Part shown: piece after piece, positions 14,801 through 56,245 of the stretch
Layout: every line of letters begins with the position of its first letter
How positions within the stretch are numbered: the stretch's first letter is position 1
Assembly (NCBI GenBank): GCA_026770025.1
Contig: JAMXDE010000019.1
Location: forward strand, 310,001 to 374,000
Source of the DNA: Craspedostauros australis
Lineage: Eukaryota; Bacillariophyta; Bacillariophyceae; Mastogloiales; Achnanthaceae
Reading direction: 5' to 3'
DNA length: 64,000 nucleotides
Notes under the pieces: model-generated
Told to the model about the DNA's origin: nothing
Databases searched by the model: none
What the model saw: only the letters and a program-made list of their open reading frames with translations
Translations under genes and position numbers: made by a program

Positions 14801-15521
14801 ACACAACAAGTGGATCGAGTTCTATCCACAAGCAACTGAGGAGATGCCACACAATCAACCAAGGCCAAAAGGGAAACCAGCCAGAATCACCGTGTACGTG
14901 GATGCTGATCATGCACACGACGTTGTGACACGCAGATCCGTCACAGGCATTGTGGCAAAGATCAACGGCATGGTGGTGCGTACGTTCTGCAAGCGGCAGA
15001 AGACGGTGGAGTCGTCTACGTATGGTTCCGAGCTGGTGGCCGCGCGCATCGCAGTGGATATGATCGTCGAGCTGAGAACAGCGCTCCGTGTCATGGGCGT
15101 TCCCATCGATGGACCCGCGCTACTCTTGGGTGACAACAAATCCGTGGTCATCAACACGACCATACCCACCAGCGTGCTCAAGAAGAAGCATTGTGGCATT
15201 GCATACCACCGCATCCGTGAGGCAATCGCTGCCAAGGCTGTGCAGTTCGTGCACATCGCGTCAGAGGACAACGAAGCCGACTTGCTGACGAAACCCGTGG
15301 CAAAGCACACGTTCTACCGCCTCATCCGCATGTCACTATTCCGTCTACCAAAGCAACTTTCCAAAGCAAAGCGCGACACGACGAAACCAGATCAGGCTGG
15401 ACATGGCAACCGCAAGCAGACCAAGACACTCGTGAAGGTGGTTAGGACCTCGCAGGTCTTCATCCCTGACACGTCCAAAAGGGGCGTATTGGAGCGAAAC
15501 CAGTCACGAGGACTCGGCTGA
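8891..15521 (+). CDS. copia gag-pol polyprotein, main segment
   Basis: This is one long frame with no stop until 15519-15521, 35 bp into the 3' LTR. After a gag region without a recognisable CCHC zinc knuckle come: an aspartic protease (CDSGAQCSILG near 10735); an integrase with candidate acidic residues in VVATDTFF, FRMDNAGE and NPAELRAVKW (about 12000-12330); a copia integrase tail; an aromatic segment near 13450-13590 that loosely resembles a chromodomain-like module; a reverse transcriptase (KARLVANG, DVGNAFLYA, GLYGLR, catalytic YVDD at 14274-14285); and RNase H (VYVDADHA, ESSTYGSEL, LLGDNKSV, ADLLTKP). The only clear lesion is the nested LTR upstream. The first in-frame ATG after that insertion is at 8998. 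The frame is not host coding sequence. Confidence 0.92.
15477..15486 (+). promoter_or_regulatory. polypurine tract of the copia element
   Basis: The sequence AAAAGGGGCG abuts the 3' LTR, the expected place for the plus-strand priming site of an LTR retrotransposon. Confidence 0.75.
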
Positions 15522-23200: not shown

Positions 23201-23482
23201 CAATCCTGGATTTGGTGCAGACGCAGCAATCGTAGCAGCAGCAGCTGTGATGAGCTGCGAGTTGCCCGTCGTCATTGAATCCTTGGCCGTTCCATCGGTG
23301 GCGATTGTGATGTCACCAGCATGCGCATCATTCGTAGCGGCTGCGCTGCTCCATTGCTGGCTCATTCCGACCCGTGTTGGGTTGTTGCCTTGGCGCCTGC
23401 TGCGCGGAGATCGATCACCCGATCTTGCGAAAGAGTTCGTGGCTGTCTCGTTCTCGTTCTCGTCGTCGTTGGTGGAGCTCAT
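20270..23482 (-). CDS. LRR receptor-like single-pass membrane protein, subfamily B copy 1
   Basis: I chose the ATG at 23482 (MSSTNDDENENE) because the longer frame has only a GTG upstream and the paralogue starts MNSTNDDENE. The protein is 1070 residues. Residues 1-610 are Ser/Arg/Asp-rich and presumably cytoplasmic, with a TSIGAFSV segment and the charged helix AELAPTPEEIRNAFREEIE that also occurs in subfamily A. A TM helix (VIAVTTIVIAVAVALVVV) lies at about 611-633, followed by a stalk of PTPGPTPGPTALPSETPT type. The ectodomain has a cap (YRQWNGPEW, GVICDSQG), plant-type LRRs at about 777-940 and a Cys-rich C-terminus (CSCCTVCC, CGECPYIDDDG). It has no kinase and no signal peptide. It is probably an orphan receptor or adhesion protein of type II topology. 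Confidence 0.9.
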   Translation of the reverse strand: MSSTNDDENENETATNSFARSGDRSPRSRRQGNNPTRVGMSQQWSSAAATNDAHAGDITIATDGTAKDSMTTGNSQLITAAAATIAASAPNPGLARRRPPLSPVRPRNSNAEVGHEAPIMAEDSHDVLNTDMGRDMDRDIEARAGIDAATAPFAAGVDATDDDSKQPAQPRNSDHRRQAMAIAAQDVDLLSQTLVRSARSRRAAAIHAYSRQMSGDDNRSHVTNDANTAVTIASIVKAQQKSAGGDGSNTRSSGDAQTLNSTPMSITMRSPVVRGTGPQGKSAQNRFDQISQLMAAEARPPANLSRVSTDGSIWRHANGKAITIRGSGSTRESGSTSVKGSQVDSTQESQRGSQRSSERSSEHSKYKTSLRSSAGDKDGTPQLNDESFTYPDKGSSSLHKPKFSQKRHPKDSSSKSLRVPDASLPLRSRQGNIRNFRNVRTGGNSSGEDDDGGKSEFVTATTITSSTSIGAFSVTPKVVGNANGDGTQETREISLRDSYQQEQLSTSQQQQPHPSNPTLVAELAPTPEEIRNAFREEIEEEFQKRVNQEVQQRMGVQVVVPGVDAYIADAIQVEPAGGDANDYESGRGGDGLKGYANEPRNAVKLLCCVMDRRMVIAVTTIVIAVAVALVVVSQGGGTTKTSQINPTPLPTPGPTPGPTALPSETPTVLVQPDDFHTMVDILAPLLSELPTFLDPVTFNDTESLPHEILDWMVNVDTYSKTILTNDTALMPFILLERYCIVSMYRQWNGPEWRFQRNFLTPTSVCDWNEQPEGELYGVICDSQGRVIQLSLSNHGLMGPIPEEVYHLVRLEWLKLPANNIQGSISTHIGNLERLIDVLIGPSQMTGTIPTEVGLLPDLEAFEVYDSFLNGTIPTEFGNNRKLEAIAMHKNALTGVLPVELATLSKLVVFALYSNRLTGTVPIEYRALSNLERFEIPENFITGSVDPIFCEDFSVIPNMQVLAMDCTGSTLDGSLLSYTVCSCCTVCCNPYAKECEWREPLVPKCEAGGCVACDVSVMELSCGECPYIDDDGSISYDLGSGAMNGWTQLCLGACNRNPRTGICELRTEFGL

Positions 23483-23890
23483 GTCCCCTCTCTGCGGTCT
23501 TCGTTGCGAAGACTCCTGTGGTTGCCAAGCAATACCAGGATTCGAGGTGCCTGCTCGTGTCAGAAGCACCTTTGATGATCAACTTCCAGCTCTATGCGCC
23601 AGCGATTGCAGATGAGAACAAGAGTATCGACGGCTCGCTCTGTCGTTTGCGGCTTTTGGCTTATGTGACGAAAGGCAGCACAGAGTAGCGCGGTGCGGAA
23701 CATGCACATGAGGCGCACAGGGTCAGACTCTCCCATTTGTGCTGTTGGCATCCACAGTCGTACGACCTGCTTCCAACGGAGAATGCATCGAGCCTGTGAG
23801 CGGCAACACTATGACCTGCACAGAATGTAAAATGCAGCATGCCAGTAAGCGATAACACCACTTGCGGAGTTTTGATTCTTGGTGTTCTTA

Positions 23891-30983: not shown

Positions 30984-33900
30984 TCACAATCCAAACTCCG
31001 TCCGCAGTTCGCAGATGCCAGTGCTGGGGTTGGGGCTGCATGCTCCCAAGCAGAGTTGCGCCCAACCGTTCATTGCGGCCGAATCTAGATCGTACGAAAT
31101 GAAGCCATTGTCATCGATGTAGGGACATTCACCGCATGACAACTCCATCACGTGAGTGTCGCAAGCGATGCAGCCGCCAGCCTCGCACTCGGGGATCGAT
31201 GCCTTTCTCCACTCGCATTCCTTGGCATACGGATTGCAGCAAACCGTGCAGCACGAGCATACAGTGTACGAGAGCAGGCTGCCATCGAGGGTGGATCCTG
31301 CACAATCTGTTGACAACAGTTGCATGTTGGGGATGACGCTGAAATCCTCGCAGAAGATGGGATCCAAACTGCCGGTGATAAAATTCTCAGGAATTTCAAA
31401 CCTCTCGAGCTTCGACAACGCCCTGTACTCGATGGGCACCGTTCCTGTGAGCCTGTTGCTGTACAGCATGAGAACGACTAGCTTCGATAGTGTGGCCAGT
31501 TCAACTGGAAGCACCCCAGTCAAAACATTTTTGTGCACAGCAATAGCTTCCAGCTTCTGGTTGCTTCCAAACTCCGTTGGGATCGTTCCATTGAGAAACG
31601 AATCAAAAACTTCGAAGACCTCAAGGTCCGGGAGCAGGCCAACTTCCGTGGGAATCGTTCCTGTCATCTGCGAAGGCCCGATTAAGATATGAATCAATCT
31701 TTGCAGATTGCCGATGTGAGTGGATATGCTGCCTTGGATGATGTTGGTGGGAAGAATGAGCCATTCCAATCTGACCAGATGGTACACCTCCTCAGGAATG
31801 GGCCCCAGCAGACCATGGTTGGAAAGAATGAGCTGTATCACTAGCCCTTGCGAATCGCAGATCACACCATACAATTCACCTTCGGGTTGTTGTTCGTTCC
31901 AATTGCACACTGACGTGGGTGTCAGAAACTTGCGCTGGAACTTCCAATCTGGTCCATTCCACTGGCGGTACATGCTCACGATACAGTACCTTTCCAGAAG
32001 AATGAAGGGCATCAGCGGGGTCTTGTTGGCGAGGATGGTTTTGCTGTAGGTATCAACGTTGACCATCCAATCAAGTATTTCATATGGCAGGGACTCCGCG
32101 TCATCGAAGGTGGCCGGGTCCAGGAAGGTGGGAAGTTCTGAGAGCAACGGCGCAAGAATGTCGACCATGCTGCGAAAATCATCAGGTTGAACCAAGACTG
32201 TTGGTGTCTCGGACGGCAGCGCAGTTGGCCCTGGAGTTGGCCCTGGAGTTAACAACGGAATTGGATTGATCTGACTGGTCTTGGTGGTGGCACCGCCTTG
32301 CGAGACGACGACGAGTGCCACAGCAACTGCGATCACGATCGCTGTCACGGCAACGATGACGCCAATGGCCATCCTTCTATCCATGACACAGCAAAGTAGT
32401 TTGACAGCATTTCTGGGTTCGTTCGCGTATCCCTTCAACCCGTCGCCGCCACGTCCACTTTCATAGTCATTTGCATCGCCGCCCGCTGGTTCTACCTGGA
32501 TGGCGTCCGCGATGTACGCATCGACGCCAGGGACCACGACTTGGATGCCCATTCTCTGCTGCACTTCTTGATTCACCCGGTTCTGAAACTCTTCTTCAAT
32601 TTCTTCTCGGAATGCATTGCGGATTTCCTCCGGCGTAGGGGCCAGCTCGGCGACGAGCGTGGGGTTGCTGGGACGGGGCTGTTGCTGCTGGGAAGTCGGG
32701 AGTTGCTCCTGCTGATCGGAATCGCGCGGTGAGATCTCACGCGTCTCCTGCGTATCATCATCGTCCGCATTCCCGAAAACTCTGGGGATGACGCTGAAGG
32801 CACCGATGGACGTACTCGAAGTGATGGTTGTAGCAGCGGTGACAAACTCGCTCTCGCCACCGTCGTCATCCTCGCCACTTGAATTTCCACCTATGCGGAC
32901 GTTGCAAAAGTTGCGAATATTCCCCTGGCTAGGTCTCAGCGGTAGGCTCGCGTCGGATACTCGCAGTGATTTGCTGGACGAATCTTCAGGGTGTTTTTTC
33001 TGCGACAATTTTGGCTTGTGAAGGGATGAACTGCCTTTGTCGGGGTAGGTGAAGGATTCATCATCTAGCTGAGGGGCTCCGTCCTTGTCTCCAGCGCTGC
33101 TGCGGAGGCTGGTCTTGGACTTGCTGTGTTCGCTGCTACGTTCACTGCTACGTTCGCTGCTACGTTGGCTGCCTTGTTGACTCTCTTGCGTGCTATCCAC
33201 CTGACTGCCCTGGACGCCGGTGCTTCCGCTCGCTCGAGTTGAACCGCTGGCTCCGCTGCTTCTGTTGGCGTGGCTCCCGGTGCTCCCGTCGGTACTGGCC
33301 CTGCTGAGATTGGCTGGCGGTCGAGCCTCGGCAGCCACAAGCTGAGATATCTGATCGAACCTGTTCTGCGCGCTCTTCCCTTGAGGTCCTGTGCCGCGCA
33401 CGGCCGGTGATCGCATCGTGATGCTCATGAGTGTGCTGTTGAGCGTTTGGGCGTCGCCGCTGGATCGCACGTTGGAGCTGTCCACCAATTTCTGCTGTGC
33501 CTTGACGATGGATGCGATTGTGACTGCCGTGTTGGCATCGTTGGTCACATGCGAACGATTGTCATCTCCCGACATCTGTCGGTTGTAGGCGTGCATTGCG
33601 GCGGTGCGACGTGACCGGGCGCTGGGTACCGGAGTCTGCGGATCAACATCCTCCGCCGCGATGGCCATCGCCTGTCGTCGATGGTCAGAATTTCGCGGTT
33701 GAGCGCGTTGCTTCGAATCGTCGTCTGTCACATCAACGCCGGCGGCAAAAGGCGCAGTGGCAGCATCGATGCCTACATGAGCTTCAATATCCATGTCCAT
33801 GTCCATGTCTGTATTCAATACATCATGACTGTCTTCCGCCATGATTGGAGCTTCATGACCAACTTCTGCGTTGGAATTTGGGGCTCGACCAGGGGGCAGA

Positions 33901-34181
33901 GGAGGGTGTCGTCTGGCCAATCCCGGATTTGGTGCAGACGCAGCCATCGTAGCGGCAGCAGCTGTGATGAGCTGCGAGTTGCCCGTCGTCATTGAATCAT
34001 TGGCCGTTTCATCGGTGGAAGTGGTGATTGTGATGTTATCAGCATGCGCATCATCATTTGTAGCGGCTGCGCTGCTCCATTGCTGGCTCATTCCGCCTCG
34101 ACTGCTGCGCGGAGATCGATCACCCGATCTTGCGAAAGAGTTCGTGGCTGTCTCGTTCTCGTCGTCGTTGGTGGAGTTCAT
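30984..34181 (-). CDS. LRR receptor-like single-pass membrane protein, subfamily B copy 2
   Basis: This intronless 1065-residue frame starts at an ATG at 34181. It follows the plan of the 20270-23482 protein throughout: Ser-rich cytoplasmic half with Ser/Glu/Arg repeats (SSERSSERSSEHSKSK), TSIGAFSV, the AELAPTPEEIRNAFREEIE helix, a TM helix at about 602-629 (IGVIVAVTAIVIAVAVALVVV), a PTPGPT stalk, an LRR cap, plant-type LRRs and a Cys-rich end. Differences from copy 1 include the helix start (extra IGVIVAV), a Gln insertion before EGELYGV and several LRR surface positions, so the ectodomains have begun to diverge. Both frames are intact. The 3' flank from about 30832 also matches copy 1. Confidence 0.9.
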   Translation of the reverse strand: MNSTNDDENETATNSFARSGDRSPRSSRGGMSQQWSSAAATNDDAHADNITITTSTDETANDSMTTGNSQLITAAAATMAASAPNPGLARRHPPLPPGRAPNSNAEVGHEAPIMAEDSHDVLNTDMDMDMDIEAHVGIDAATAPFAAGVDVTDDDSKQRAQPRNSDHRRQAMAIAAEDVDPQTPVPSARSRRTAAMHAYNRQMSGDDNRSHVTNDANTAVTIASIVKAQQKLVDSSNVRSSGDAQTLNSTLMSITMRSPAVRGTGPQGKSAQNRFDQISQLVAAEARPPANLSRASTDGSTGSHANRSSGASGSTRASGSTGVQGSQVDSTQESQQGSQRSSERSSERSSEHSKSKTSLRSSAGDKDGAPQLDDESFTYPDKGSSSLHKPKLSQKKHPEDSSSKSLRVSDASLPLRPSQGNIRNFCNVRIGGNSSGEDDDGGESEFVTAATTITSSTSIGAFSVIPRVFGNADDDDTQETREISPRDSDQQEQLPTSQQQQPRPSNPTLVAELAPTPEEIRNAFREEIEEEFQNRVNQEVQQRMGIQVVVPGVDAYIADAIQVEPAGGDANDYESGRGGDGLKGYANEPRNAVKLLCCVMDRRMAIGVIVAVTAIVIAVAVALVVVSQGGATTKTSQINPIPLLTPGPTPGPTALPSETPTVLVQPDDFRSMVDILAPLLSELPTFLDPATFDDAESLPYEILDWMVNVDTYSKTILANKTPLMPFILLERYCIVSMYRQWNGPDWKFQRKFLTPTSVCNWNEQQPEGELYGVICDSQGLVIQLILSNHGLLGPIPEEVYHLVRLEWLILPTNIIQGSISTHIGNLQRLIHILIGPSQMTGTIPTEVGLLPDLEVFEVFDSFLNGTIPTEFGSNQKLEAIAVHKNVLTGVLPVELATLSKLVVLMLYSNRLTGTVPIEYRALSKLERFEIPENFITGSLDPIFCEDFSVIPNMQLLSTDCAGSTLDGSLLSYTVCSCCTVCCNPYAKECEWRKASIPECEAGGCIACDTHVMELSCGECPYIDDNGFISYDLDSAAMNGWAQLCLGACSPNPSTGICELRTEFGL

Positions 34182-41799: not shown

Positions 41800-42748
41800 G
41801 GCTGTTGGTGCGTGGAGAGTATAATAGAATGGTATAATATTTTATAATGGTAGAGAGTAGCGAGAATGTTGTGTTTGCATTCGGCTGGATTGTGTTTTTG
41901 TGAGCGTTCCAGGATCAGTTCCGATGCTGTTGCCACCATACTAGTACAACAACACTGCGAGAAGCCAGCGTCGCGCAGCGTGTTGCGCTGTGTCGCCGAA
42001 CGTCGTGTTATTGTTGGCCCAAGTGTTGTCGTGCGTGGTTTGAAGCGCTTTGCGCGTTCCTGCACAGCCTTCACCATGGTCTTGCCTGTTGCGTCTGCCT
42101 GCCTGGCGCTTTGCCTCACGTTCTGTTGTGTTCGTGTGAAGCATTCACTGTCGTGATGCAAGGCCCAAACACACAAAGGCACTTCGAAACGCGCATGGGG
42201 AGCAAAGTGGGACAGGTCGCCGCGAAAGCCACGTGTTCCACGGGCCTTCCTTGAGCAGAAGCGATTGGCATCACGTACGAGCCACAGCCGAAAAGGAATG
42301 GCGACATGGCGATCAGTCCCATGACACGGCATCGAGCATTGCCACTGGTTTTATCAGGGTTATAACGTTCGAGGTGTCATGGAGCTGCGTACATAGCGAT
42401 TCTGATCGGGGATCTCTTATTGGGACTGATCAAGACATCAGACCCACGAAACCGTTTTCCTCACGACAATACACTTAAACGGCTGGTCTCTGTCCCTTTT
42501 TCATCGGTATTCACAGTTGTCCCGTGGAACTGCGGAGGGTCAAACTGAAATCTCCTGAAGCAGTGGTTTGTGCCTGTGACCCCGATCCCGACAAGTGCTC
42601 AAACGGTGCGGTACTGTGTTCGCTCCAACCTTCTCCGCTGTCGAACAGGAACGGTGCCTGTTGTTGCGGTGCCCTTTCGCACTAGAGTACTCTACTCTAT
42701 TAGTACTATACTGTGCATCATTGACATTTCTCAGCATCAGGATAATAA
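41800..42748. other. intergenic, nothing recognised
   Basis: This is the 5' flank of the 41095-41799 gene and the DNA up to the left end of the 13.5 kb inverted-repeat element. No coding signal was seen. Confidence 0.5.
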
Positions 42749-42786
42749 GACCCGCCTGAGCGAAAATAGTACACCTTTCTCGGGAA
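42749..42786 (+). repeat. left TIR of the 13.5 kb element
   Basis: This 38 bp repeat is perfectly matched in inverted orientation to 56204-56241. It begins GACCCGCCTGAG and ends TCTCGGGAA. Confidence 0.9.
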
Positions 42787-43360
42787 CGTCGTTTCTGTGT
42801 TGAAAATAACTGCATATATCTCTTCTCCTACATCAAATACATCATATGGCCAGAACTAGAATTGTTCCGTCCAATCATTTTAAAGTTATGGAGGGTTGAA
42901 AATCATGTCAAATCTACGTATTAGGTGAATAACGCACAGACGCCAAAGTGCTCATTGACGCTTCAATTTAGTCGCAGTGGTCATTCGTCCCAAAACAGTC
43001 TTTTTTCTTCCGTCGTTTGGGCTTTGTTCGCGATTCTTGAATTTCCGGAGAGTGACTTTACCTTGTGCTCACACAGAATCGTTGGTGTGAACACAAAACT
43101 GTTGTTGCATGGAGAGTGATATGATGTATCATATTGTGATGCGGTGCGATGTGCAATGGGCCGTCAACCAGGATGGTAGGCACAGTCCTTGTTCCTCTTC
43201 CTCCTGTCTGTTATGTCAGCATGGTAGTAAGGTGGGTGCACTGGCTGCAATGCACAAGACGCATACGATGCAAGTTGCGCAGCGCTGAATTGGACGATGT
43301 GAATTGCTGGTCCCAAGATGGAAATGGACAGCACCCTCGCCACAGTCCTGTACGCAGCGG

Positions 43361-43640
43361 CAACCCCAACCCACACATCTCTAACCCAAACCCTAACCCT
43401 AACCCTAACCCAGGTCTTGGCCCTCTGGCCCCCGAACCCCAGCCCTAGCCCTAACATTGAGTAACTTCCTGGCTCTGTGTGAGCATTGTCAGCCGCACGC
43501 AGTTGCCTCCCTCGTCTCTCCCAAGTTGCCGAAACCCCAACCGGAACCCCAACCCTAACTCTGCTCCTGAGCAACTGCTTCCCTCCTACCTAACCCAAGC
43601 TGGAACCCCAGCCCTAACTCTGACCCTGAGCGACCTCGTG
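43361..43640. repeat. degenerate interstitial telomere-type repeats
   Basis: Uninterrupted CCCTAA units stand at 43387-43411, surrounded by variants such as CCCTAGCCCTAAC, AACCCCAACC and CCCTAACTCTG to about 43640. Two copies of a roughly 170 bp unit containing a CCGCACGCAGTTGCCTCC or CCGCACACAGTTACCTCC stretch are interleaved (about 43459 and 43630). The TTAGGG-type unit is the usual eukaryotic telomere repeat, so this is internal telomeric or subtelomeric-like DNA. Confidence 0.85.
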
Positions 43641-43685
43641 ACTCTGTCTGAACAACGTCATCCGCACACAGTTACCTCCTCCGTC

Positions 43686-43999
43686 GCTCTGGTGTTGCCC
43701 TTGTCGCGAACTCTTGCTTTTCTCCCACTTTTTTGCTTCCCGCACTGTTTCGATCCATTTCAACGGCCGCCGTTCCAGCGTTTTTGATTCGATTTCACGA
43801 TTATTACAGTTTGTTTCGTCGGAGGTATCCTCCAGAACGTCCTTTGAACTATTTGGCGCCAATGAAACGTAATCAACATTGTCGATTGTGACCCTGGTAT
43901 CCGGACAGACGTCATATCTGCTGAGTAAAACCTGGCACGTTGGCTCGAAGGCTTCGTTGAGAATCTCAACGCACGAGCCATCCAAAGAGACAGACTTGG
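43686..43999 (-). other. possible coding exon of unknown affiliation
   Basis: Read on the minus strand, a pyrimidine-rich tract ending CCAAG (about 44000) precedes an open stretch with balanced composition (SLDGSCVEILNEAFEPTC and on) that ends at a GTAACT, a possible donor, at about 43680. It could be an exon, but I found no convincing neighbouring exons and no recognisable domain. Confidence 0.2.
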
Positions 44000-44338
44000 A
44001 CAAACAAAGACAAGAAACAAGTCAACACGAGAGACGAAAGGGGCCCTGTGTTGACTGGTGGGAAACATCGCGTCGCGTGGCTTCGCATCATCGCCGTTGC
44101 CATTTCCATTTCCATCGGCATCCCTTGGCAACCGCACGAGTACCATACTCGCTCGCCATCATCTTTTTTCAATCAAGAGCATCATGCACAAGCACGTTCA
44201 TCTTCTGAAGTGCTTCATCCCAATCTCAACTGGCATCTCTCATTGCGTCGATCAATTGACCGATCGCCGCTCGTGCCTCAGTTGGTGGGTTGTACCGTTA
44301 CGGTCACGCATTCCTGCTTGTGCGACCGTGACAATTCC

Positions 44339-44400
44339 AACGCATCACAACGCATCACAACGCATCACAATGCACCGCAATGCACCACAGCGCACCACAA
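44339..44400 (+). repeat. short tandem repeat, about 10 bp unit
   Basis: Repeats of ACGCATCACA drifting to ATGCACCGCA and AGCGCACCAC lie immediately upstream of the peptidase pseudogene start. Confidence 0.75.
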
Positions 44401-44411
44401 CCCAAAGAGAA

Positions 44412-47269
44412 ATGAACATGGCAGACGATCCCTCCATCTCGGTGGAGGATGAGGATAGCAAATCTTCCATGAGCTTCGTCTCCAAGGCCAACGAGATGTG
44501 CCTCAACACGCTCGGCGATCGCACCAAGTCCAAGACCAGATCCTACAAGTGCGTCGTCGACGTCCTTGAGGCGGATGACAACATACCCTTCGTGAGCAAG
44601 ATGGGGACGGATGCAGCAGGCAATGACATGCTCTTCAATCTGTGGAAGGATTCCAAGGTAGGTACAATGCGCAATGCACAATACAATGCACAATACACTG
44701 CACGAATGAGCTGAAGAAGCTCTGCAAGTATTCCATGGTATGCATCGCGCTCCTCACACACAGAACAACATTGCATTCTATTCTCACATATTATTCTCAT
44801 ATTCTGTTGTCTTGCTTCACTGTTCGCGTCATCCTTCCAACCAACAATCCTGCATCCACATCGACATCGTCCACACTCCAAACACTGCAGAATCAAAAAA
44901 GCGTCTGGCGCAAAACAATGTTGGCGTCGTATCAGACCAGCAACCCCAAATGGACCAAGGTGATGGATCTGGACCACTTTGCCAGAAAGGAGAAGATGCT
45001 GTGGAAGTGAAAGGGAAGCCGGGTGCTTCCCAGAGCAAGAGATCCAATGTCGCAAGACGGCAAGCTCATCACGCACGCACTTCTCAGTTTGTCACAGGGC
45101 AGCACGGACTCCGTCATCCTCAGGGAATTCGATCTCGTCAAATCCGCATTCGTCACCGACAGGCCATTCTCAATACGGAAGACAAGACCAGAGCCTGCTA
45201 CAAAACAAGGAACATCCTCCTGGTCGGGGCGGATTTTGGTTCTTCGTCTCTCACGAGGGCGGGATACCCCAGGACGATCCGCGAGTGGGTGAGAGGCACG
45301 GATCTGGCATCAGCGTCTGTGGTCCTTGAAGGTGAAAAGTCTGACATCGCAGTCTCAGCCAACGTCGACAATCAGAGGGTGCGCAGCGGGGGTATCTACA
45401 AAATCTGCACGAGGGCCATCGCCTACCAGACCACCAAATTCTGGATACGGAGGTCAAGTACAAGCACATGCTGCCGCCCAGACAACATACCAGAATCGAG
45501 ACAGGAGATCCGCCGGATTTCAAACCGTTGCTTGCACCAGAAGATTCGGATATCGATTTCGGTGGCACCGTTCTCATGATCCCATTGCAATCCAACTGGT
45601 CACCTGAGGGTGCCAAGGAATTCAAGGCTGGATCCATCATCTACATCAACGCGCACAAATTCGTCAGTATGGACCAGCCTATCGGATACATCAAACCCTC
45701 TTTAAACCCTCCGACTACCTCCTCCGCGAAAACTACACCGTCACAAAGAACCACCTCATCCTCATGCTCATTGGTAACGTCAGATCGAAGCTGGAATTCT
45801 ATCAATTGGAGGAGGAGGCTAACAAGCTGCGTTTGGTGGGAGTCGACAAGCGGCCACGAATCGCCTCCGCCAGCGTTTGATCTGCGCATCCCTATGAGAG
45901 CAATCGATTCTGGACCACGACCACCAGATACACAGAACCAACCACGCTGTGGCTTGGCGATGCATCCGTGTTTGATGGCGAAGACGAGAAGATGATGAAG
46001 CGGGTCGACCCAGAGGTGCACCTTGGCAGCAAGCTCAAATCGCTACCGAGTCAATTCGATTCGAAAGGTTTGGACGTCATGCAACGCATCGCAGAAAGCA
46101 AGGACGGCACTGATGCTCTGCACATCATCATGTCGAAGAGGCGTCCCCACGAACAAGCAGACCCACCTTGCTCTACGCCTATGGTGCCTTTGAGGTCGTG
46201 TCGGTCCGCATTACAACCTGCAACAGGTCTGGAATGGTGGGAATGTGGCGGCGTCTGCGCGGAAACCAACATGTACGGTGGCGGAGCATTCGGTCCAGGC
46301 TGGCATCAGGTGAGTGACAAGTGTTGTTGATGTTGCTGCTGCTGCTGTGTATGATCGTGTTGTACACTTGCGCATTTGCACCTGGCATGTGCGCGGCGCA
46401 GAGCAGACCAAAAAATCAGGAATGGAAAGCGTGCACAAAACAGGCGCATTGAAGGAGTACGACTTTCAGAGATTGTGGGGACATATGCCATTGATTCCTT
46501 GATTCTATTCCATTCGTATTCCCACTTCAATTCACATCATACTCACAATTGAATCAATCTCCGATTGGTTGGCATGGCATGATATGATATGATACGAACT
46601 GCGCCCATTCTGTGGTACTGCTCGCACACACTCTCATCCCGAATGATGGACTCCACTCCAACCATCCGTCTGAATTGCTGCAATATCGTCTTGCTGGAGG
46701 CCGCGGTGCACGAAAAGCGTACCAAACCACACAAAGACTTCATCGCAGCTGCTGAGGATTTGATTTCGTCGAAGTATGAAAAGCCAAAACATTGGTCATC
46801 CACGGCAGATCCGGCGGAGGATTGGTGGTGCGGATGCTTTCGTGATGCTCCTGAACTGTTCAGCGCGGTGCGTTGGGCAGTCGACCCATGTCATCAAGCG
46901 GTCAAAGATCTGCATTCGGACGATGCACCGATATGCGCGACGAATTTGGATCCGGACGCGTCCGATTGGAGGTGTTCATGAAGTAGATCTCGCCGTATCA
47001 CAACATCAAATAGGATCCAAATTTTCTACCAATCCTATTCACTGCCGCACGAACGATGATCGGATAACCCAGCGCATGCACGCAAGATGGTGAAGAAGCT
47101 GTGGAGCCTGGTTCAGGGAAAACGATGGCTGTCATAATACGATGAGAATGTGGAGGGCGGGAACGATCTTCATGCAACGCCGAAGCAGGACGCCTTCATG
47201 ACTGCGCTGGCGTACGATTTCATGTTCATGACGTTGTCGAAGAATGCCGAGAAGTCAGCTGACGAGTAA
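44412..47269 (+). pseudogene. prolyl oligopeptidase family (S9A) pseudogene, frameshifted, introns retained
   Basis: Successive fragments in different frames follow the order of an S9A peptidase. They are: the N-terminal propeller start (DDPSISVEDEDS, IPFVSKMG, LFNLWKDSK) to a GTAGGT donor at 44658; after an acceptor at 44890, VWRKTMLASYQT; SLSQGSTDSVILREFDL; LLVGADFGSSSLTRAGYPR; MIPLQSNWSPEGAKEFKAGS; the SDYLLRENYTVTKNHLIL region; LKSLPSQFDSKGLDVM; GGGAFGPGWHQ; a second intron (about 46308-46699) with GTGAGT donor; KPHKDFIAAAEDLI; the nucleophile-elbow remnant GRSGGGLVV near 46806; VFMK and ISPYHN; and the C-terminus ending at TAA 47267-47269. At least five frame changes and several stops break it. 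Retained introns exclude a processed copy. It lies inside the 13.5 kb inverted-repeat element and is probably a captured or pre-existing host gene that decayed. Confidence 0.88.
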
Positions 47270-47583
47270 TGGACGGGGTTTGGATTGATGCACGCAGTGG
47301 TCTAATCGTGTATCATACCATACATAGCAAGCACATGTGCGAATTGAGTAGATGCACGGCGATGGTGGTTCCATTGTGCATGTCAAGATCATAGCAACCG
47401 ATAACATCAGAGCCACTCTATACATACCAACAACAGCTTCCTCTCGTAATCCCTGTGGACACGCAGTTACTGCAGTTGATATCGCCATGCTGCAAGTTGA
47501 TAGTATCAATGTGACACAGAGTATAGTATCGTAGAATAGAATGCAATATAATAATGTTAGCATACTCGCGGCGGTCGTCAGGA

Positions 47584-50500
47584 TCAATCATCGGAAGGTA
47601 GCAGGTTGCCATCAATCACATCAGCGTCCTGCCCATCGTATGGGCGATCATCCAGAACCTGCTCTTCGTGCGCTTCTTCGCTTTGAGTGTTCTCCTTGGA
47701 TGCCATGATCCGCAGTTCATGCATCTCGTTCAGGCACTCTTCGCACTCCTCGTCATCCAAGTAGCCATTGTTCTCAAGGTATCTCTCCGCTCGACCGTCA
47801 GGAGCTGCCAGGAAGCATTTCAGGTACGTGATGTCCACCTTGATCCTCTGCTCCCAATCAAGCAAGAAAGGCCCGGCCATCAGCTCTTCGTGAAGCACAT
47901 GAGCGCTCCTCCTCGTGTCCGGGTTCCTGCAAGCAATCGCAGCATCGCACACGATCTGCGCCACTTGTTTCGACATGGACGGTACCTTGGTTGCCGGAGG
48001 TGCTGATGGATCCTTCTTTCGTGAGGTGGCTTTGTCTGGGTGGCAGATCGCCCATCCCTGCCTGATGGATTGAGGGAAGTCCACTGTGGCATTTCCTTCA
48101 CAATTTGCCGTTTCTGCTGCCGCTGCTGGTTCCAGAACACGCGAAGTGAGAACGCGCTTGAGCATGTCAGTTTTGCTGGTGCTCTTGTTTGTTGTTGTTG
48201 CGTGTCGTCGCTCAGTCGGTTGTGAGCTGCGGATATTCTGTGGATCCATCACAAATGCCGGTGGGACCTCTGTGATGTCCTCATCATTGCAAGTGACATC
48301 GAGATGGAGAATGTCAAACTTGTCGATCTTGTCCTGAGTGATGGTCTCTGGATGCGTCAATCCCGATGATGCTGTGACCTGAATTTTGTCATCAATCAGA
48401 TCAATTTGATGGGTGGCGCGAACGGAAACTCGGTTGGTCGCGAATGCTTTTTCCTTTCCGTCCACATCGCAGATGATGGCATGTCCCAATCTGCTCAGAT
48501 CCAACAGAAGCGTTGTTGTCCCCTTGATGTTGGCAGCTTTCAGCACTTTGAAAACATCGCCTTCGGTGGCAATCTTTGCGTCCCTGGCACTGTCCACATA
48601 CAACCTGAGTTGACGTGAGACAAAACCGAAGTGTCCGTCCAAAGCACTCTTGCCAGCTTGTGCCTCAGTGTACAGCCATTGGATGATTTGGAGTCGTGGT
48701 TTGGGAGGGCGGGTTCCGGTGTCTTGCTGTGCTTTGGCCTTCGTGGATGATGCAGCCTTCGCGTCATGATAAGATGACTGCTCGGTGTTGATTTTGGGGG
48801 GAGGTGGATACTTAGCCTTGTCCTTGTGCTTGCCCTTGTTCTTGGCTGTTGTCTTCCGCTTCTTCTTCTTCTTCTCCGGCATCGTGTATTCAACTTCAAC
48901 CTGTCCCTGGTTTAGTCCATGCATGTACCTCATCAATGCCGGACTCGCGAAACAACTGGCATTGTCGCTTTGGAATACGACCTCTTTGACCCCCTTGTGA
49001 AGCTTCGGAAGCACGGTAGCATGAAGAATCTTGATCGCACCAGCAACTTGGACATGATCCTGTTTGTTCCGCCCCTTCATCACCATGTCAATGAATCGGT
49101 ACTCGAACTTACCGTTCTTGTATTGGATTGTCATGACACCAAGGAGAGACATTCCGTTTTTTCCGAAGAACGCTTTCTGAGCTTCCTGATTCTCTGTTGG
49201 GAGGATGCGTTGCTTGTGATCAAGCACGGCAATGATGCGATCTGGGTGGTCCTTGAGGCGCTCCTTTTCCTCCTTGATCTTCTGCGCTTGTACCTTTCGT
49301 CTCACTTGGTGGGCCATGTACTGGCGCAGCGCGTCATCACACAGGTTAATTGCTGCAGCCATGCGATCCAATTCAAACGTGTTGCCAGTGATGCTGTTGG
49401 TGGCAGTTTTCATGAAGTTGCGAACACGAATCGGGAAAAACGTCATGACATCTGCACATTGCTTGCATGCTTGGTTCACAAATGGGAGGGAGCCTTTTGT
49501 CAGTGCGAACTCTGCGGAATGTAGATTATCCGTTGTTGTCTTCACCTTGAGGTGCTTGTTCGCGTATTCCCATTTTGCAAATGAAAGAACAGAATCACTG
49601 TCCGTGATGATGGCCTGTGCCTCATCAAGAAGTTCAGACGCGAGTTCTTTGTCTTGATGTTCCTTATTCTGAGTCCGAAGCAGTTCCATGACTCTCTTGA
49701 TCATGCTTTGGAAGTGCATGAATACAGCCAGAGTGTCTGTGTAGAAGGAGGACAGGCCAGTTTGACACTTGCCACGTCGCGTGAGCAATGTCAGGATACT
49801 CCTGAAGGCAGGCATACCAACTGGGTCATCTGTTGTGTTCTTGTACTTGGCAAAGAGCTGCTCTTCTGATATTGATCCGCGAATGAAGATGGGCAGGTCT
49901 GGGAACAGAACACCAGCCAACTTGACACTCCTTGTGATGCCTGGCCGGTACTGGAACATGGAAGTGAGAAATGAGACTACGCCCTGGAGACTAGATTCCT
50001 TGACACGGTACTTGTAGTCTGCGTGTGGGAACTGGCCTCCAGCAAGGATCGCACCTCCAGCGTGCGACAGTCGCCTGTGTCCTGTACGAGACATGGTTCG
50101 GCGTCCAAGCTTGACCCTCACCTTGTCTCCTTTCGACAAGCTACTGTAGTGCGCGGCCAGGATTCGGGTGCAGCGCCTGGAGTCACAGGTCATTGCCAAA
50201 ACCGCACGAGCAGTCAGTGATAGTTCTTGATTCCCCCAGAAGGCTAAATGACAGAGAGTCTGCTCCAGCAACACAGGAGGGAGCTGTTTGCGATGTCGCA
50301 CGAAGGTCATGGCTTCTGAAAGCTGTTTGGGGGGTTCTCTGCCAGGAAACATGTGCTGGGTTGACCCACCACAAACTCCATCCCAGACTCGGTTGATGAG
50401 ACTCCAACGACCAGTCGCTGTCTTTCGTGGGAGACGTTCAAATCCATCCACATGGAACCGTGAGAGGGGTTTGATGCTAATGCCAGCTGCTTCAAAAATG

Positions 50501-51228
50501 GCTTGCAGCACTTCTCTTCGATTCACCTTGCCCTCGTTGGCTGGAACGAACGCAGCATCGGTGTCATCCTCACTGGTTGTACTCGCACAATCCGACTCGC
50601 ACTCTTCCATAGACACAGCGACATCTTGTCGCGCGAGCACATCATCTCCTGCCTGTCGATGTGGCGCCCTGCATCTGGTTGCTGATGATTTGCGCTTGGG
50701 ACGTGTTGGCGCAGCAGCACCACCACAAGTCCCAATGGAGAACGAATTGGCCTGTGGTACAAAGGCATTCACACCTGTGTGACGTGCACCTCTGCTTATG
50801 GATGATGCGCAGTTTGGGCAAAATGGTGGCCTACTGCAGTGACTGCAGAACAGGGTCAGACATTGCTTGCAAGGCATGATACCAAAGCAGTTGGGACCCA
50901 TGTAGTTGGAAGTGGGAGTTGCCATGCTGTTGTTGGGATGGAATGTAGAGTATGGTAGACCACCCACGCCTGTACCGATGTAGCTGGGGATGCAAAAGGA
51001 AGGAGGTTGTATGTTGGGAGGGACATGATGATTCGCAACCATGGGGAGAGGAGGACTGTGAACGCTGCCATGGTGGTTTGGTCCGACATGTGCAGAGTAT
51101 TGGTACGATGCGTAGTCCCCATGAGGTGGTTGGTGATAGATGGATGTGCCAGCAGTTGCTGTTTGACGCTGCACCTTTGATTGGGATGGATTGGGGTCGC
51201 TGCTCGAATCCTCGCGTGGACGGGTCAT
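47584..51228 (-). CDS. large Cys-rich protein with putative DDE-type transposase core
   Basis: The intact frame gives 1214 residues from the ATG at 51228 (MTRPREDSSSDPNPSQSK); the frame stays open to an ATG at 51507, but that extra segment is Cys/His/Val-rich and looks like 5' UTR. A Cys cluster CKQCLTLFCSHCSRPPFCPNC (about 118-140) suggests zinc binding. After an acidic linker comes a helical region, then a candidate RNase H-like core: Asp in IIAVLDHKQRIL (about 669), Asp in VVFQSDNASCF (about 755) and Glu in WLYTEAQAGKSALDGHF (about 854), spaced about 86 and 99 residues. A Lys-rich insert (EKKKKKRKTTAKNKGKHKDK) lies between the second and third. I infer a cut-and-paste transposase that could act on the surrounding 38 bp TIRs. 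Superfamily not assigned; Sola- or other less-studied groups are possible. A domesticated host protein is the alternative. Confidence 0.75.
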   Translation of the reverse strand: MTRPREDSSSDPNPSQSKVQRQTATAGTSIYHQPPHGDYASYQYSAHVGPNHHGSVHSPPLPMVANHHVPPNIQPPSFCIPSYIGTGVGGLPYSTFHPNNSMATPTSNYMGPNCFGIMPCKQCLTLFCSHCSRPPFCPNCASSISRGARHTGVNAFVPQANSFSIGTCGGAAAPTRPKRKSSATRCRAPHRQAGDDVLARQDVAVSMEECESDCASTTSEDDTDAAFVPANEGKVNRREVLQAIFEAAGISIKPLSRFHVDGFERLPRKTATGRWSLINRVWDGVCGGSTQHMFPGREPPKQLSEAMTFVRHRKQLPPVLLEQTLCHLAFWGNQELSLTARAVLAMTCDSRRCTRILAAHYSSLSKGDKVRVKLGRRTMSRTGHRRLSHAGGAILAGGQFPHADYKYRVKESSLQGVVSFLTSMFQYRPGITRSVKLAGVLFPDLPIFIRGSISEEQLFAKYKNTTDDPVGMPAFRSILTLLTRRGKCQTGLSSFYTDTLAVFMHFQSMIKRVMELLRTQNKEHQDKELASELLDEAQAIITDSDSVLSFAKWEYANKHLKVKTTTDNLHSAEFALTKGSLPFVNQACKQCADVMTFFPIRVRNFMKTATNSITGNTFELDRMAAAINLCDDALRQYMAHQVRRKVQAQKIKEEKERLKDHPDRIIAVLDHKQRILPTENQEAQKAFFGKNGMSLLGVMTIQYKNGKFEYRFIDMVMKGRNKQDHVQVAGAIKILHATVLPKLHKGVKEVVFQSDNASCFASPALMRYMHGLNQGQVEVEYTMPEKKKKKRKTTAKNKGKHKDKAKYPPPPKINTEQSSYHDAKAASSTKAKAQQDTGTRPPKPRLQIIQWLYTEAQAGKSALDGHFGFVSRQLRLYVDSARDAKIATEGDVFKVLKAANIKGTTTLLLDLSRLGHAIICDVDGKEKAFATNRVSVRATHQIDLIDDKIQVTASSGLTHPETITQDKIDKFDILHLDVTCNDEDITEVPPAFVMDPQNIRSSQPTERRHATTTNKSTSKTDMLKRVLTSRVLEPAAAAETANCEGNATVDFPQSIRQGWAICHPDKATSRKKDPSAPPATKVPSMSKQVAQIVCDAAIACRNPDTRRSAHVLHEELMAGPFLLDWEQRIKVDITYLKCFLAAPDGRAERYLENNGYLDDEECEECLNEMHELRIMASKENTQSEEAHEEQVLDDRPYDGQDADVIDGNLLPSDD

Positions 51229-51573
51229 GATGCGATAGCGATGGTGGCTGACGGACGATGTGGGTGGGGGGAAGGCACGGATGATTCTGAATGATCTCGA
51301 TGTTGGGGAGCACTGAGCGTTGCGCTGACATTGCAGATAGGAGAACACAGCAGACAGCAACAACAACACACAACAAACCAAAATGACACATGCACATTCG
51401 TTCACAACAGCATGAGGGATGTGTTTGTGTCGAGATCGGCAGCAACAGTTCAACGGTCGCTCATTGGTGCATACGTGGTTGTGATTGGAGAATGTATGTG
51501 GAACCATCTGCGATTTTTATTCTGGCGAAAGAGTGAGTGTGACGCAGCGCCAACACAACGAGAGAGCAAGTGC

Positions 51574-51590
51574 AAGAGAGAGAGAGAGAG
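51574..51590. repeat. GA microsatellite
   Basis: A short run of AG units lies upstream of the 47584-51228 gene, in its probable 5' flank. Confidence 0.7.
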
Positions 51591-52053
51591 CAACAAGTGC
51601 TACATCAATCCGTCTGTCCATTCATTCTCTATTGATTTTGTCTTTTTATTCTCGTCGATTGTAGCCTCAATTTCTCATCATTTGCATTGGCATCGTGAGA
51701 GACGATCGAGTGTGTATCATGATTACGTCCCTGGTGGCCGAACGCAACCCGGTAGAATACAATCGATCTGTTCTTCGTTGGCTGCCATTTGGAGTTGTGT
51801 TGGCTGTCGGCGCCGATCGTCTCAGATGCGACGATTGAAGTATCCGCAGTGAATGGGCAAGAGTACAGTTGTTGGGTGTGCGATGTGTGATGTGTGATGT
51901 GAGTTCGCTGGGGGCGGACATTCTGTTCTGCCTGTTGCTTTTGATTGGTGCGTCGGAGATTGGGTGGCTGGTCCATGAATCTGTCATTTGTGATCCCATC
52001 GTGTTGTTTTCTTGATTTTCGGATATACTTTGGTTCTTCGTTGTTCGTTTGTT

Positions 52054-52090
52054 AAATGTCGTTCGTCCTCGTGAGCAACAAACGACATTT
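52054..52090. other. short hairpin
   Basis: AAATGTCGTT at 52054-52063 and AACGACATTT at 52081-52090 form a perfect 10 bp stem with a 17 base loop. Role unknown; it could be a structural signal in a transcript or a small palindromic insertion remnant. Confidence 0.5.
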
Positions 52091-52411
52091 ACACTGAACC
52101 ATTGATGATTCCCATCCAATCAGATTTGACCGAGGTGCGCCAAATTCACAACAACAACTCCCACACCAAACCCACATTTTCGATCAAGACACCAAAACTG
52201 GATCGGGCATCGACCAAGGCATGCAGTGTATTGTCGAGTATGAGACAAGTAGAAGACGCCAAGTCGATCTTCGAACCATGATGGAACCGCAAAAGCGCAG
52301 CGCTCACAATGGTGCAGGAACGCGTCCGTGGTTCCACATATTTCAGGAGCCGCTACAATTTGTCCACTGCCGTCGCTGATCGTCAACTCTGTTGGTTGAG
52401 TCGTTGGCCTC

Positions 52412-52711
52412 GTGATACCAAGCGGTAGGAAATCTTGCCCCGCACCATCTCCAGCATCTGGGCCATCCGCAAACCTGCGTAACCATCTGTATCAATTCCA
52501 TGTGCATCTCCTTCCATTGGTGGAATTCGAAAAGGCCAACACCACACGGATCCGCGAGCAATTGAAAGTCAACACACAGTCTGCCGGAGTCCGGAGCCCT
52601 CGCAAGAGGATTGCGAGCAACATCAATTCGGAGCGTGTAGATCGCTCAGGCACAACCTCCCCTTTCCCATCAGCCGGACACCATGCATTATTGCGCAATA
52701 CGAATGGTTGA
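52412..52711 (+). pseudogene. possible coding remnant of unknown family
   Basis: The frame ending at 52711 has a stretch of protein-like composition (FHVHLLPLVEFEKANTTRIR and on) but no recognisable domain. A second open patch in another frame lies at 52107-52282 (DLTEVRQIHNN). Together they may be pieces of a decayed gene. Confidence 0.2.
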
Positions 52712-52814
52712 TGCAACTGTAATGGCATAGACTCACCTCAATCGTGCATGACACTGACGATGCCCTCCAGAAGGTGCATGACGACGGAGAGGAATTTGCA
52801 TGGGTATGGATTTG

Positions 52815-53245
52815 GTCGGATAGAAATAGCACCAGACGTAATTGCGAAATAAAAATTGGACGACTACAAAGTAAACAATGAGGCGGAGGAGATGAGAGTG
52901 GTTCGTCCCTCCAGACGTCGAAACTGATAGAATGCGTGATGGAAACGTTCAGGTGAGGGTGCAAAAATGTTAGTGCGAAGAATAACACGGGGTCCCTACA
53001 TAGGTATGCTTTTGTTGGCATAGGAATAGCACCAGGCGGAATTGCGAAATAAAAATTGGACGACTACAAAGTAGACGACAAGGCGAAGAAGATGACGCCA
53101 GTCCGGGCATGTGGCTGTCGAAACCGATGGAGTCCGTGAACGCAGCGGAAAGGGGAAGATGTTGCAACTTTATCGTGAGAAATAAGACGAGAGAAAACGA
53201 GAATCCGGCAACACAACGCGCCGAACTAAAAATAGCACAGAGTGA
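52815..53245. repeat. tandem repeat with about 200 bp period
   Basis: The core AATAGCACCAG...AATTGCGAAATAAAAATTGG occurs at 52825 and 53025, followed in each by GACGACTACAAAGTA and later by GTCGAAAC, with a partial third copy (AAATAGCACAGAG) at about 53230. The first two units are clearly alignable and the third is truncated. Confidence 0.75.
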
Positions 53246-56203
53246 ATCGTATGCATTGTATTGGTGGGTGGGTATGTCGGAAGCGTTGAAATCAAGGTAT
53301 GGAGTTCATCCAACGGAGAGGATCGTGCAAAGGATGAATGCAGTAATGTTTGCAAATGTGCTACCCACGCAACAACATCGTATACCACTATTGAAAAATT
53401 CAGTCGATTGATTTGGGAGAAAATCGGGGAACCAGAAATTGGACACAGAGGGCCCAAGGCAAACAAGGAGCCGGCACGGCACAACCCCAGGTTGCGGCTC
53501 TCACACTCCTGCGCAAGCCAGAGTGGGTATGATGGTGCTGTCGTACACTGTCTAGTGTATGAACATACCTATCGTTCAATGATAAGAATCTAATCAGTGG
53601 ATTGCTAGAGTCGGCACAAGGTGGGCACCTGCAGCATAGACACAGAATGCTACCTGGACACCATCGCCGCCGACACCAAGCGCCATGCCGAATGGAATAA
53701 GGTTCTTGAATGATCGATTCCAAATGCTCTGCTCCAAGTACAATGCAATCTCCATGATGCTGGTAACATTGTCTGGTACAACTGGACTGACTCCAAGAGC
53801 AAATGTGCTGACTTCTGCCCATGAGCTAATTGGTGACTTGCGCCATTCCCTTTCACAGTTGCGTGTAGCAATTTGTGGCTGCACGTACCGGCGTTTGCTC
53901 CGCCCATCTGCACCATGTCCTGCGATGGCACCAATACGGCGACTATGGTTCGTCGCCAAGTGTGTCGATACGGTATCCTTGGGATGATCACAGCTCGCTC
54001 CATCCATCCATTCGTCAATCTATCCAATACGTATGGTACTGGTATTAGTAGCATGTCGTGTCGTGTCGTGTCGTATCGGAAAGTCACGAATGTAGTTTGG
54101 AGTGTGCGCGATTTGTCGCTCGACTTGTGAATTGGGATGCGCAGTTCTCTTGCAAATGGACACCAGTTTCCGGCGCAGAGCAGTGGCTCACATTTTGCTC
54201 TCACGCGAACACCAGTCAATCGCGGCGAGAGGACGAGTACACGCCATCAATTCGAAAATGTTTGTGCTTGCGAGGAAATCGGAACAAGCTCTCAGCCTCA
54301 TCCACACTACCTCATCCGTTAGTATGGCACTATTGTTTTATTGCTCAGAACATCCCATCCATCTGCCCCGACGCTTTCCGTACAGATGATCACCACCAGC
54401 TTCTCGTCTATCGCTCATCCAACAACCGCTGGGGGAGACAACAAATCGCATCCGCCTGTGGAACAGCGTTCACCAATCATCAACCGCCAGTGCCATTCAT
54501 GGTTGGCGCCGGCTGTTGCTTGCTCTGTGACCACCCAGACTGCCACGAACGGCCCCAGCAGACAACGGAGAATGATGACGATCAGCGAGAGCGAGTGATG
54601 ATACCAAATCCATGGGCGCAAAAAAAAAAATCGCACGCGCATGTCAGTATCGGTGTCGTCGCCAGGAGCAAAATTGGAGCTGTGTTTCCACAGCACCAAG
54701 AGGGATTGTTATTCGAAGCAACGCTGCTGTCAAATCAATTCAAATACCCTAAACTCAATCCACAATATGGCGTCCAAACGGTCAGCACATCGTTGTTCCT
54801 TGTCTTTGATCCACGCCAACTCTGGAGACGATAACGCACCATGGAACTGATCGTCATACCTATCTCATGAGGGTAACAATGCTGACAATCCTCGCGCTCC
54901 AAGTCTGCCTGCGCTGCTGACCACCAAGCGCGCCTTGTGGATGCAACACCATCGTTGACGGTTGGAATTGACGGTGGAATGTTGATTCTGCGGAAGTCAA
55001 CCGATCCATCACAAGATCTAACCTGATCAGCCTCCGATGTGCAAATAATACAAATGTGGGCATGTACGATAAAAACAGATGTATTATATGCGATACTGCT
55101 GTACTCCCCTTCTTGTGTTCAGTGCGGTACATCATTCTGTTCTCGCAGAGCCACTCCGCAGTTTTGTGGCGCTCCAGAAACGATTCCGTGGGGAATGTGT
55201 ATCAACAGGCACAAAGCAGTCCAGAATTCGCGAGCGCAGTATCTGATTTGGTTTTGTTCCATGCATGTTTCCACCAAAACACCACATCTCACGTCTGTCT
55301 GTCCACCGACATCTGAAAAAGTACACAGCGATTCTTTGGGTGCGACATGAAAAAGAACCAGGAAAAGGAATGAAACGTGATCAAGAAAAGAGCAAAATGA
55401 ACTCACAAACTTCCACAACAACAACGAGACACCGAAATCCTGTCTGAGAGGCGCAACGCGCGGCGACTCGGCAACTCGAGAAGAGCACAGCAGCGTACAT
55501 CAGGAATGTGCCGTAGTTGCCACCGGCCAACTTTGATTCGCAGGATGGGAACGTTATCCTCCTGTACCTCTCTTGTCACAGAGTCTCGTGCCCCTTGTAT
55601 GCAATGAGAGACCACACGTGGAACGCGCGAGATCATGGTGCAACGAACCCGGCAGTGATCACAGTTCCCGCGCTCACGAAGTACTACCAGCATCAGCAAA
55701 GGCAAAAGTAACATCCCACTATACCTGGTGGAATATACTGATAGCTCTGCACCTTCATCCCATCCTGATGTCGTATGGCACAGCGCAGTGCACGTACGTA
55801 CCATCGCATGCTGGTGCAGTTTTGCTCCTCCTCACCTGTTCCGAGTCCATTGCGAGAAACTGCGTGCAATCAATTGGGGCCAAAAACAGTCGAAATGTTG
55901 ATCCGTTCGCACGACTGTAGACACGTCTGAGTTCAGCTTCAAGCGCCTTGCTGTGAGTCCGTCTGAGAGAGGAAAAAAGAACATTTTCGCCGCTCGCCGA
56001 CGTCCAACTTGAAGACAATGACGAGTCGCATCCATGTCCGATCGAAAGCTAAAAACCTAAAGCACGGGCTACTGTGGGGAATTTCTCAACTCAAGCCCTC
56101 ATAACTTATAAAATATAAAGTGTAGCAATTCTAGGAAAGTCAATCCGTCACTTTCTCATAGAGAGGAACATCATATTAAATTTATAGGGAAATCTGAGAG
56201 GAC
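53246..56203. other. right part of the 13.5 kb element, no gene recognised
   Basis: Several frames of 130-260 codons exist on both strands but none shows a domain, codon pattern or splice signals that I can defend. The last 150 bp resembles the left subterminal region in inverted orientation. Confidence 0.45.
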
Positions 56204-56241
56204 TTCCCGAGAAAGGTGTACTATTTTCGCTCAGGCGGGTC
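56204..56241 (-). repeat. right TIR of the 13.5 kb element
   Basis: This is the perfect 38 bp inverted match to 42749-42786, followed by ATAA at 56242-56245. Confidence 0.9.
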
Positions 56242-56245
56242 ATAA

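Follow-up and report, generated by a model that had tools for sequence, protein, structure and literature searches.

A 13.5-kb DNA transposon, probably of autonomous type, with a captured host gene in the diatom Craspedostauros australis

The element and its ends

The genome of the diatom Craspedostauros australis contains a DNA transposon at positions 42749-56241 (13.5 kb) of the stretch analyzed here, a 64,000-nucleotide segment referred to as the window (contig C17:310001-374000 of a 74.8-Mb assembly in 90 contigs). The element is bounded by 38-bp terminal inverted repeats (TIRs) and a 4-bp target-site duplication (TSD), and its interior holds a decayed host-type peptidase gene, an open reading frame (ORF) for a large putative transposase, and long tracts with no detected coding signal. 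We read 42749-56241 as a full-length copy of an autonomous-type diatom DNA transposon family and give this explanation as a whole, with its trans action, gene capture and cassette exchange, a probability of about 0.87. The features are listed below in window coordinates; A and B denote two types of copy that differ in the inner part of the TIR and in one segment of the transposase.

42745..42748, TSD ATAA, left copy, same as 56242-56245
42749..42786, plus strand, left 38-bp TIR, exact inverted copy of 56204-56241; other copies share these ends
42787..43953, left subterminal region, coding signal not detected in the selection scan
43954..47370, plus strand, decayed prolyl oligopeptidase (S9) gene, captured together with its introns and flanks, as judged from the match to host locus L117
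47584..51228, minus strand, transposase ORF from Met94, ~1214 aa, under purifying selection, at no fewer than 35 genome places
48637..49221, minus strand, candidate catalytic core, invariant in 8 aligned transposases: D763 (49219-49221), D848 (48964-48966) and a third acidic residue, E948 (48664-48666) or D957 (48637-48639)
50293..50547, minus strand, variable cassette, aa 321-405, delimited by divergence between A and three B copies and by agreement with the inner TIR type
50809..50871, minus strand, six-cysteine cluster, aa 213-233, CX2CX4CX2CX5CX2C, read from the sequence and also present in three B-type copies
51508..56203, right half, coding signal not detected in the selection scan, no host gene among the matches listed
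56204..56241, minus strand, right 38-bp TIR, exact inverted copy of the left TIR
56242..56245, TSD ATAA, right copy, same as 42745-42748

The initial annotation described the 38-bp ends as exact inverted copies bordered on both sides by ATAA, which the sequence bears out; an exact inverted pair of this length has a chance expectation of ~3e-14 in a 64-kb window of the same composition. The outer part of the left TIR starts GACCC and its inner motif, ACCTTTCTCGGGAA, is of A type. A further claim, that the next ~150 bp also align in inverted orientation, holds in part: similarity is present but weak, with ~59% identity between the ends over the next ~110 bp (68 of 116 columns, equalled by 1 of 500 simple shuffles), and it fades out near bp 151 (106 of 154 columns identical, TIR included). 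Copies of A and B type differ strongly at about bp 26-125 from the element end. Within the right half, 52000-55980 is 89-98% identical to the other matches listed.

Copies, insertion sites and mobility

The terminal 28-mer occurs at 52 genome positions with up to 2 mismatches, and 22 copies other than the one in the window have both ends, about 13-30 kb apart, with matching 4-bp flanks in 20 of them. All 10 further copies that were fetched whole share their interior with the window copy. Overall, both ends were examined in 23 copies; in 21 of them the two 4-bp flanks are identical and of the form NTAN (13 ATAA/TTAT, 5 TTAA, 2 ATAT and 1 GTAA), a count that treats C12:1945619 as a duplicate of the C37 copy (same flank, near contig ends). 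The genome search with the terminal sequence that the initial annotation had called for thus recovered further copies with the same ends and 4-bp duplications at other sites, and its proposal of one DNA transposon with TIRs and a duplication stands. Transposase sequence was found at 35 or more genome places (37 rows, two places being split) and the cargo block, including the window copy, in at least 36 matches no shorter than about 1.9 kb, which leaves 35 element places once the donor is subtracted; one of these, C12:1947415, is probably a duplicate of C37. Both searches score the best candidates only, so these counts are lower bounds.

Joined flanks were also searched against the same assembly for uninterrupted versions of the insertion sites. 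Such a related site, in which the 4 bp occur once, exists for 5 of 17 sites: C32 (at least 13 rows among the matches listed, 93-100% identical, three at 100%), C4 (at least 25 near-complete rows among the matches listed, 95-99%), C37 (two, 99%), C18 (one, 98%) and C36 (one, 86%). The 17 sites do not include C2:2630141, C59, C38, C2:480928, C3 and C4:1184, and in one joined-flank search the best 40 of 360 candidates were scored. Near-identical copies occupy sites with different flanks (C6 and C59 at 100.0%, C32 and C37 at 99.9%), and identity of up to 100.0% between copies at differing sites indicates that movement has been recent. Because C6 and C59 share a transposase frame break near residue 784 and lie at different sites, broken copies can probably be moved in trans.

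The 11 copies fetched whole measure 12.9-14.3 kb, and seven copies span 20-30 kb as judged from the positions of both located ends. In C33 and C36, the two of these seven that were sampled, part of the extra DNA carries retrotransposon domains (RVT_2; gag_pre-integrs), and it starts at different element positions, so the retrotransposon-type insertions are independent. The initial annotation had suggested a giant cargo-carrying element; the cargo is present as a captured host gene, and the size falls short, since the review PMC6431247 calls a transposon giant only above 20 kb, measured on the internal coding region.

Several observations on individual copies were made along the way. In C33, immediately upstream of the transposase (near window 51883; cf. 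L095 2745-3135), lies a repeat of variable length whose units seem to be 7 bp, and the length at this point differs from copy to copy. C37:7853 and C12:1945619 have an identical left flank and element, near a contig end on both, which suggests an assembly overlap or a subtelomeric duplication. A putative 46-kb element at C59:67365-113714 (L073, L074) was rejected: its two "ends" look like inverted duplicates of one B-type end, since the repetition takes in the outer as well as the inner sequences. The region appears to be a long inverted duplication with the same B-type end in each arm and an outer flank that recurs on C49 and C1; the 13-kb C59 element sits exactly at the ATAA beside one of these B-type ends.

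The captured prolyl oligopeptidase gene

The decayed, intron-containing host-type gene noted in the initial annotation is present and can be identified as a prolyl oligopeptidase. Its match to L117, an apparently intact paralog on contig 12, runs through introns and flanks at 80.6% identity over 3487 alignment columns. The exons of L117 are open; the last scores as Peptidase_S9 at 3.2e-25, the middle one stays under the cut-offs of the family, and no match was found for the first. On reversed L117 the captured segment runs from 922 to 4255 or 4265, boundaries common to all five copies compared (four A-type, one B-type), and nothing beyond the cargo block matched L117 in four whole elements compared with it, except one 23-bp match. 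A match of this extent with common boundaries argues for one capture of genomic DNA and not for a retrocopy, and from the sequence comparison L117 is the likely donor. Another candidate, C3:1276080, was rejected as donor at 32-43% protein identity to the cargo, the C12 locus being far closer.

When the host gene is compared with the copies, divergence at third codon positions is roughly 1.8 to 3 times that at first and second positions; in comparisons between copies it is closer to even, with a modest excess remaining at third positions. Every one of the 15 cargo copies examined contains stops and is spread over more than one frame. The highest-scoring cargo window of the selection scan, at z 2.9, lies in a minus-strand frame with 2 stops. 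A functional cargo was therefore rejected, given near-even codon-position divergence, no scan signal above z 3 and stops in all 15 copies, and the captured gene looks like passenger DNA. This is host-to-transposon capture of a complete gene with its introns, and since the likely donor persists, the gene's capture, its decay and its spread can all be traced.

The transposase

The listed ORF on the minus strand has 1307 aa (47584-51507). Met94 is the likelier start because stops or frame changes precede this residue in the B-type copies L070, L071 and L072, and the frame is open from before Met94 to the end at 13 of 35 transposase places. In the selection scan, which uses substitutions between copies, the z 3 threshold was exceeded in 9 of 88 windows. 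Every one lies within this ORF and eight are in its frame; the ninth (50249) lies in another frame and has only 5 differences. Purifying selection is thus evident in the transposase frame on the minus strand, with no clear sign of it in the rest of the element, of which this ORF makes up about 27%. The six-cysteine cluster is a possible zinc-binding motif, with no Pfam match over cut-off.

The initial annotation read an intact large protein with a plausible DDE triad. The protein is a real ORF under purifying selection, with a triad and a fold that are tentative. D763, D848 and either E948 or D957 form a candidate DDE/D catalytic core, whose invariance is judged among sequences at least 86% identical; a long Lys-rich stretch separates the second and third candidate acidic residues. 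The smaller of two AlphaFold models, with 10-residue block means of 47-60 between residues 11 and 120, has strands at 13-19, 44-53 and 56-64, a helix at 71-87 and a strand at 98-103, the first two main strands being separated by a short strand and helix. D763 closes the first strand, and D848 comes after the last strand. Such an order of strands and helix is the one expected of an RNase H-like fold, and in this model the resemblance is a hint only. With the low-confidence model as query, Foldseek against PDB gave a best E of 0.0079 and nothing at 0.001 or less; the top 12 include seven terminase nuclease-type chains, which are RNase H-like, besides actin, gelsolin and acetyltransferase entries. 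One structure match in a viral library (E 8.6e-4) was dismissed as meaningless at an rmsd of 30. A motif scan of genome contigs gave 8 matches, which resemble chance hits, and an Rfam search gave none.

A variable cassette and the type of TIR

Outside aa 251-490, 40-residue windows of the transposase are 85-100% identical between this copy and three B-type copies. Within that region identity falls to 60-80% at aa 251-330, 40-42% at 331-370 and 62-65% at 371-410, returns to 90-95% at 411-450 and is 72-80% at 451-490. The A and B forms of the cassette, aa 321-405, are 52% identical. Synonymous divergence (dS) in the three B copies is 0.81-1.02 within the cassette and 0.10-0.25 in the other three segments, and because dS is raised only there, the segment looks replaced and not fast-evolving.

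The form of the cassette goes with the inner part of the TIR. All 12 copies with an A cassette have the inner motif ACCTTTCTCGGGAA, and ten copies with a B cassette have inner motifs of the form [AC]AAGT[CT]GG...CGCA[GT]C, seen at one end in nine of the ten and at both ends for C3. Agreement therefore holds in 22 of 23 copies assessed (12 A/A, 10 B/B, 1 discordant), drawn from about 35 transposase places; C24 (cassette only), C61 (end only) and C38 (end, with the cassette from a search row) were left out. A Fisher test gives p 1e-5, which is not a true probability as the copies share ancestry. The outer ~24 bp vary separately from the inner motif, A copies having both GACCCGCCTGAG... and GACCCCGGTCAG... 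ends. Over 44949-47148 (11 windows), this copy is 97.5-99.5% identical to the B-type copy on C1 and 85.4-95.5% to the A-type copy on C22; its cargo is nearer to B copies and its end is A-type, so segments recombine. From these sequence patterns we infer that aa 321-405 are a probable end-recognition domain that binds the inner TIR. The agreement between cassette and motif offers a testable map of residues against the bases that they recognize, and suggests a way for a transposon family to switch its ends with the catalytic machinery kept. A literature search on cassette and TIR exchange found nothing obviously equivalent, which is not proof of absence.

Proposed mechanism and alternatives

In the mechanism that we propose, an ancestor would have captured the prolyl oligopeptidase gene whole, as genomic DNA, and the gene later decayed as passenger DNA. 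The ~1214-aa transposase, putatively of DDE/D type, would bind the TIRs and read the inner motif through the 321-405 cassette. The ~13-kb element would then be inserted at NTAN sites with a 4-bp stagger, of which the insertion products are what we observe, presumably by cut-and-paste and not by copying. The enzyme would probably act on other copies in trans, and recombination would have exchanged terminal sequence together with the recognition cassette to yield the related forms.

A number of results weigh against this account of an autonomous-type transposon family. The copies at C2:2630141 and C38 lack matching TSDs, and in the one assembly searched 12 of 17 joined flanks, the window copy included, have no related empty site. 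Pfam, NCBIfam and PDB sequences hold no meaningful transposase match, the only hits being far below cut-offs, and the AlphaFold models are of low confidence (mean pLDDT 31.4 and 36.9). The agreement between cassette and TIR partly reflects shared ancestry, and its discordant copy, C4:1184, combines a B cassette with A-type inner TIRs; since the transposase of this copy is broken and its TSD intact, an A enzyme may have mobilized it in trans. TIRs alone could also arise if two small independent insertions, miniature inverted-repeat transposable elements (MITEs) of one family, bracketed unrelated DNA. Against that origin stand the 22 further copies with paired ends (20 with matching flanks), the interior common to 10 of them and the relatives of five insertion sites that lack the whole unit. 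Small MITEs carrying the same ends, which the initial annotation had named as the refuting case, are absent from the 52 matches to the terminal 28-mer: no facing pair is less than ~12.9 kb apart, in a search that did not cover more divergent TIR variants. Two independent insertions were rejected on the repeated unit and the empty sites, and we consider them vanishingly improbable. Equally so is a virus-like or Polinton-type element; a length of more than 10 kb with TIRs would suit one, but selection is detected only in the transposase, no viral family matches, and the TSD is 4 bp and not the 6 bp of Polintons.

The cassette might instead have diverged in place by fast evolution, its agreement with the TIR being a matter of shared descent only. 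The A and B copies do form two groups, so that the agreement does not amount to 23 independent events, and the neighboring stretches at aa 251-330 and 451-490 likewise show somewhat reduced identity, at 60-80%. However, in each of the three B copies compared, both dS and nonsynonymous divergence (dN) rise several-fold in the cassette relative to the segments that flank it, which points to replacement, and an A-type end joined to cargo nearer B copies shows that segments recombine; we therefore judge divergence in place improbable. A bolder version of the exchange reading, in which an undescribed superfamily carries an ~85-residue cassette that recombination swaps along with the inner TIR motif, is also unlikely as a whole. 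If true, it would mean that end specificity evolves by module swapping and not by gradual co-evolution, and it would provide a natural experiment that locates both the recognition domain and its binding site.

Genomic surroundings

Elsewhere in the window, a 2218-aa ORF with an RVT_2 domain (8865-15521) is apparently an intact polyprotein, which we take from the domain to be of Copia type. Four large minus-strand ORFs (4372-7521, 16363-19455, 20270-23569 and 30984-34181) make up two similar pairs, each with a likely membrane segment and, by eye, a leucine-rich-repeat-like C-terminus; they are probably a local gene cluster. Genome-wide, the silicon-transporter family PF03842 has 88 matching rows, of which 31 cover model positions 11-504 or more, and in control genomes a sub-threshold match appears in 1 of 14. 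Silicon transporters also occur in other silicifying algae. The family points to a diatom host, and the numbers suggest a large silicon-transporter expansion in this alga.

Comparison with known systems

The family shows the marks of a class II TIR transposon: exact 38-bp TIRs, a constant 4-bp TSD (21 of 23) and empty sites (5 of 17, not for this copy). Among named superfamilies, Sola is a tentative home, at somewhat less than even odds. Sola elements are described as having DDD transposases, 4-bp TSDs and lengths that can exceed 15 kb (PMC10741241), and giant Sola-1 elements, such as the 21.5-kb Sola1-1_Ec32, are reported from the brown alga Ectocarpus (PMC12477816). Our family resembles these in its 4-bp TSD (a trait of Sola in general), its length and a possible DDD transposase, with three invariant Asp residues, D763, D848 and D957, in plausible order. 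The fit to Sola is one of TSD length and size. The third acidic residue could be E948, and the 4-bp TSD is shared with Ginger transposons, so it does not single out Sola. Membership of an undescribed DNA-transposon superfamily is less probable still, and on balance rather unlikely. The transposase has no meaningful match in PHROGs or the libraries named above and no relatives in viral contigs or phage records, and a long Lys-rich stretch lies within its candidate core; against this, the libraries searched hold few eukaryotic transposases.

In Sola1-1_Ec32, as here, an extra gene lies on the strand opposite the transposase; there it is predicted to encode a 1104-aa ParB-methyltransferase protein (PMC12477816), and here it is a dead peptidase gene. 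The same source describes giant KDZ, EnSpm and Sola-1 elements in Ectocarpus, mostly of 10-30 kb, with extra genes and nested insertions. The giant KDZ transposons of algae and fungi are alike in exceeding 10 kb and in their very long transposase, accessory DNA and nested insertions (PMC12477816), whereas a KDZ insertion described in Chlamydomonas has an 8-bp duplication (PMC10828217) and our family has 4 bp. Captured host-gene DNA between TIRs is shared with Pack-MULEs, yet Mutator and Pack-MULE TSDs are given as 7-12 bp (PMC10741241). Unlike Pack-MULEs, our family combines a single complete gene with a transposase of its own. Some of its insertions lie at TTAA, as do those of piggyBac and Kolobok, which have a TTAA target habit; piggyBac is described as having TTAA in every insertion, and here only 5 of 21 matching TSDs are TTAA. 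Large TIR elements have been described in brown, red and green algae and in fungi, and this family adds a recently active large DNA transposon to the diatoms. Beyond what the initial annotation had described, the analysis adds a likely donor gene, probable mobilization in trans, recent activity and a recombining, probable recognition cassette.

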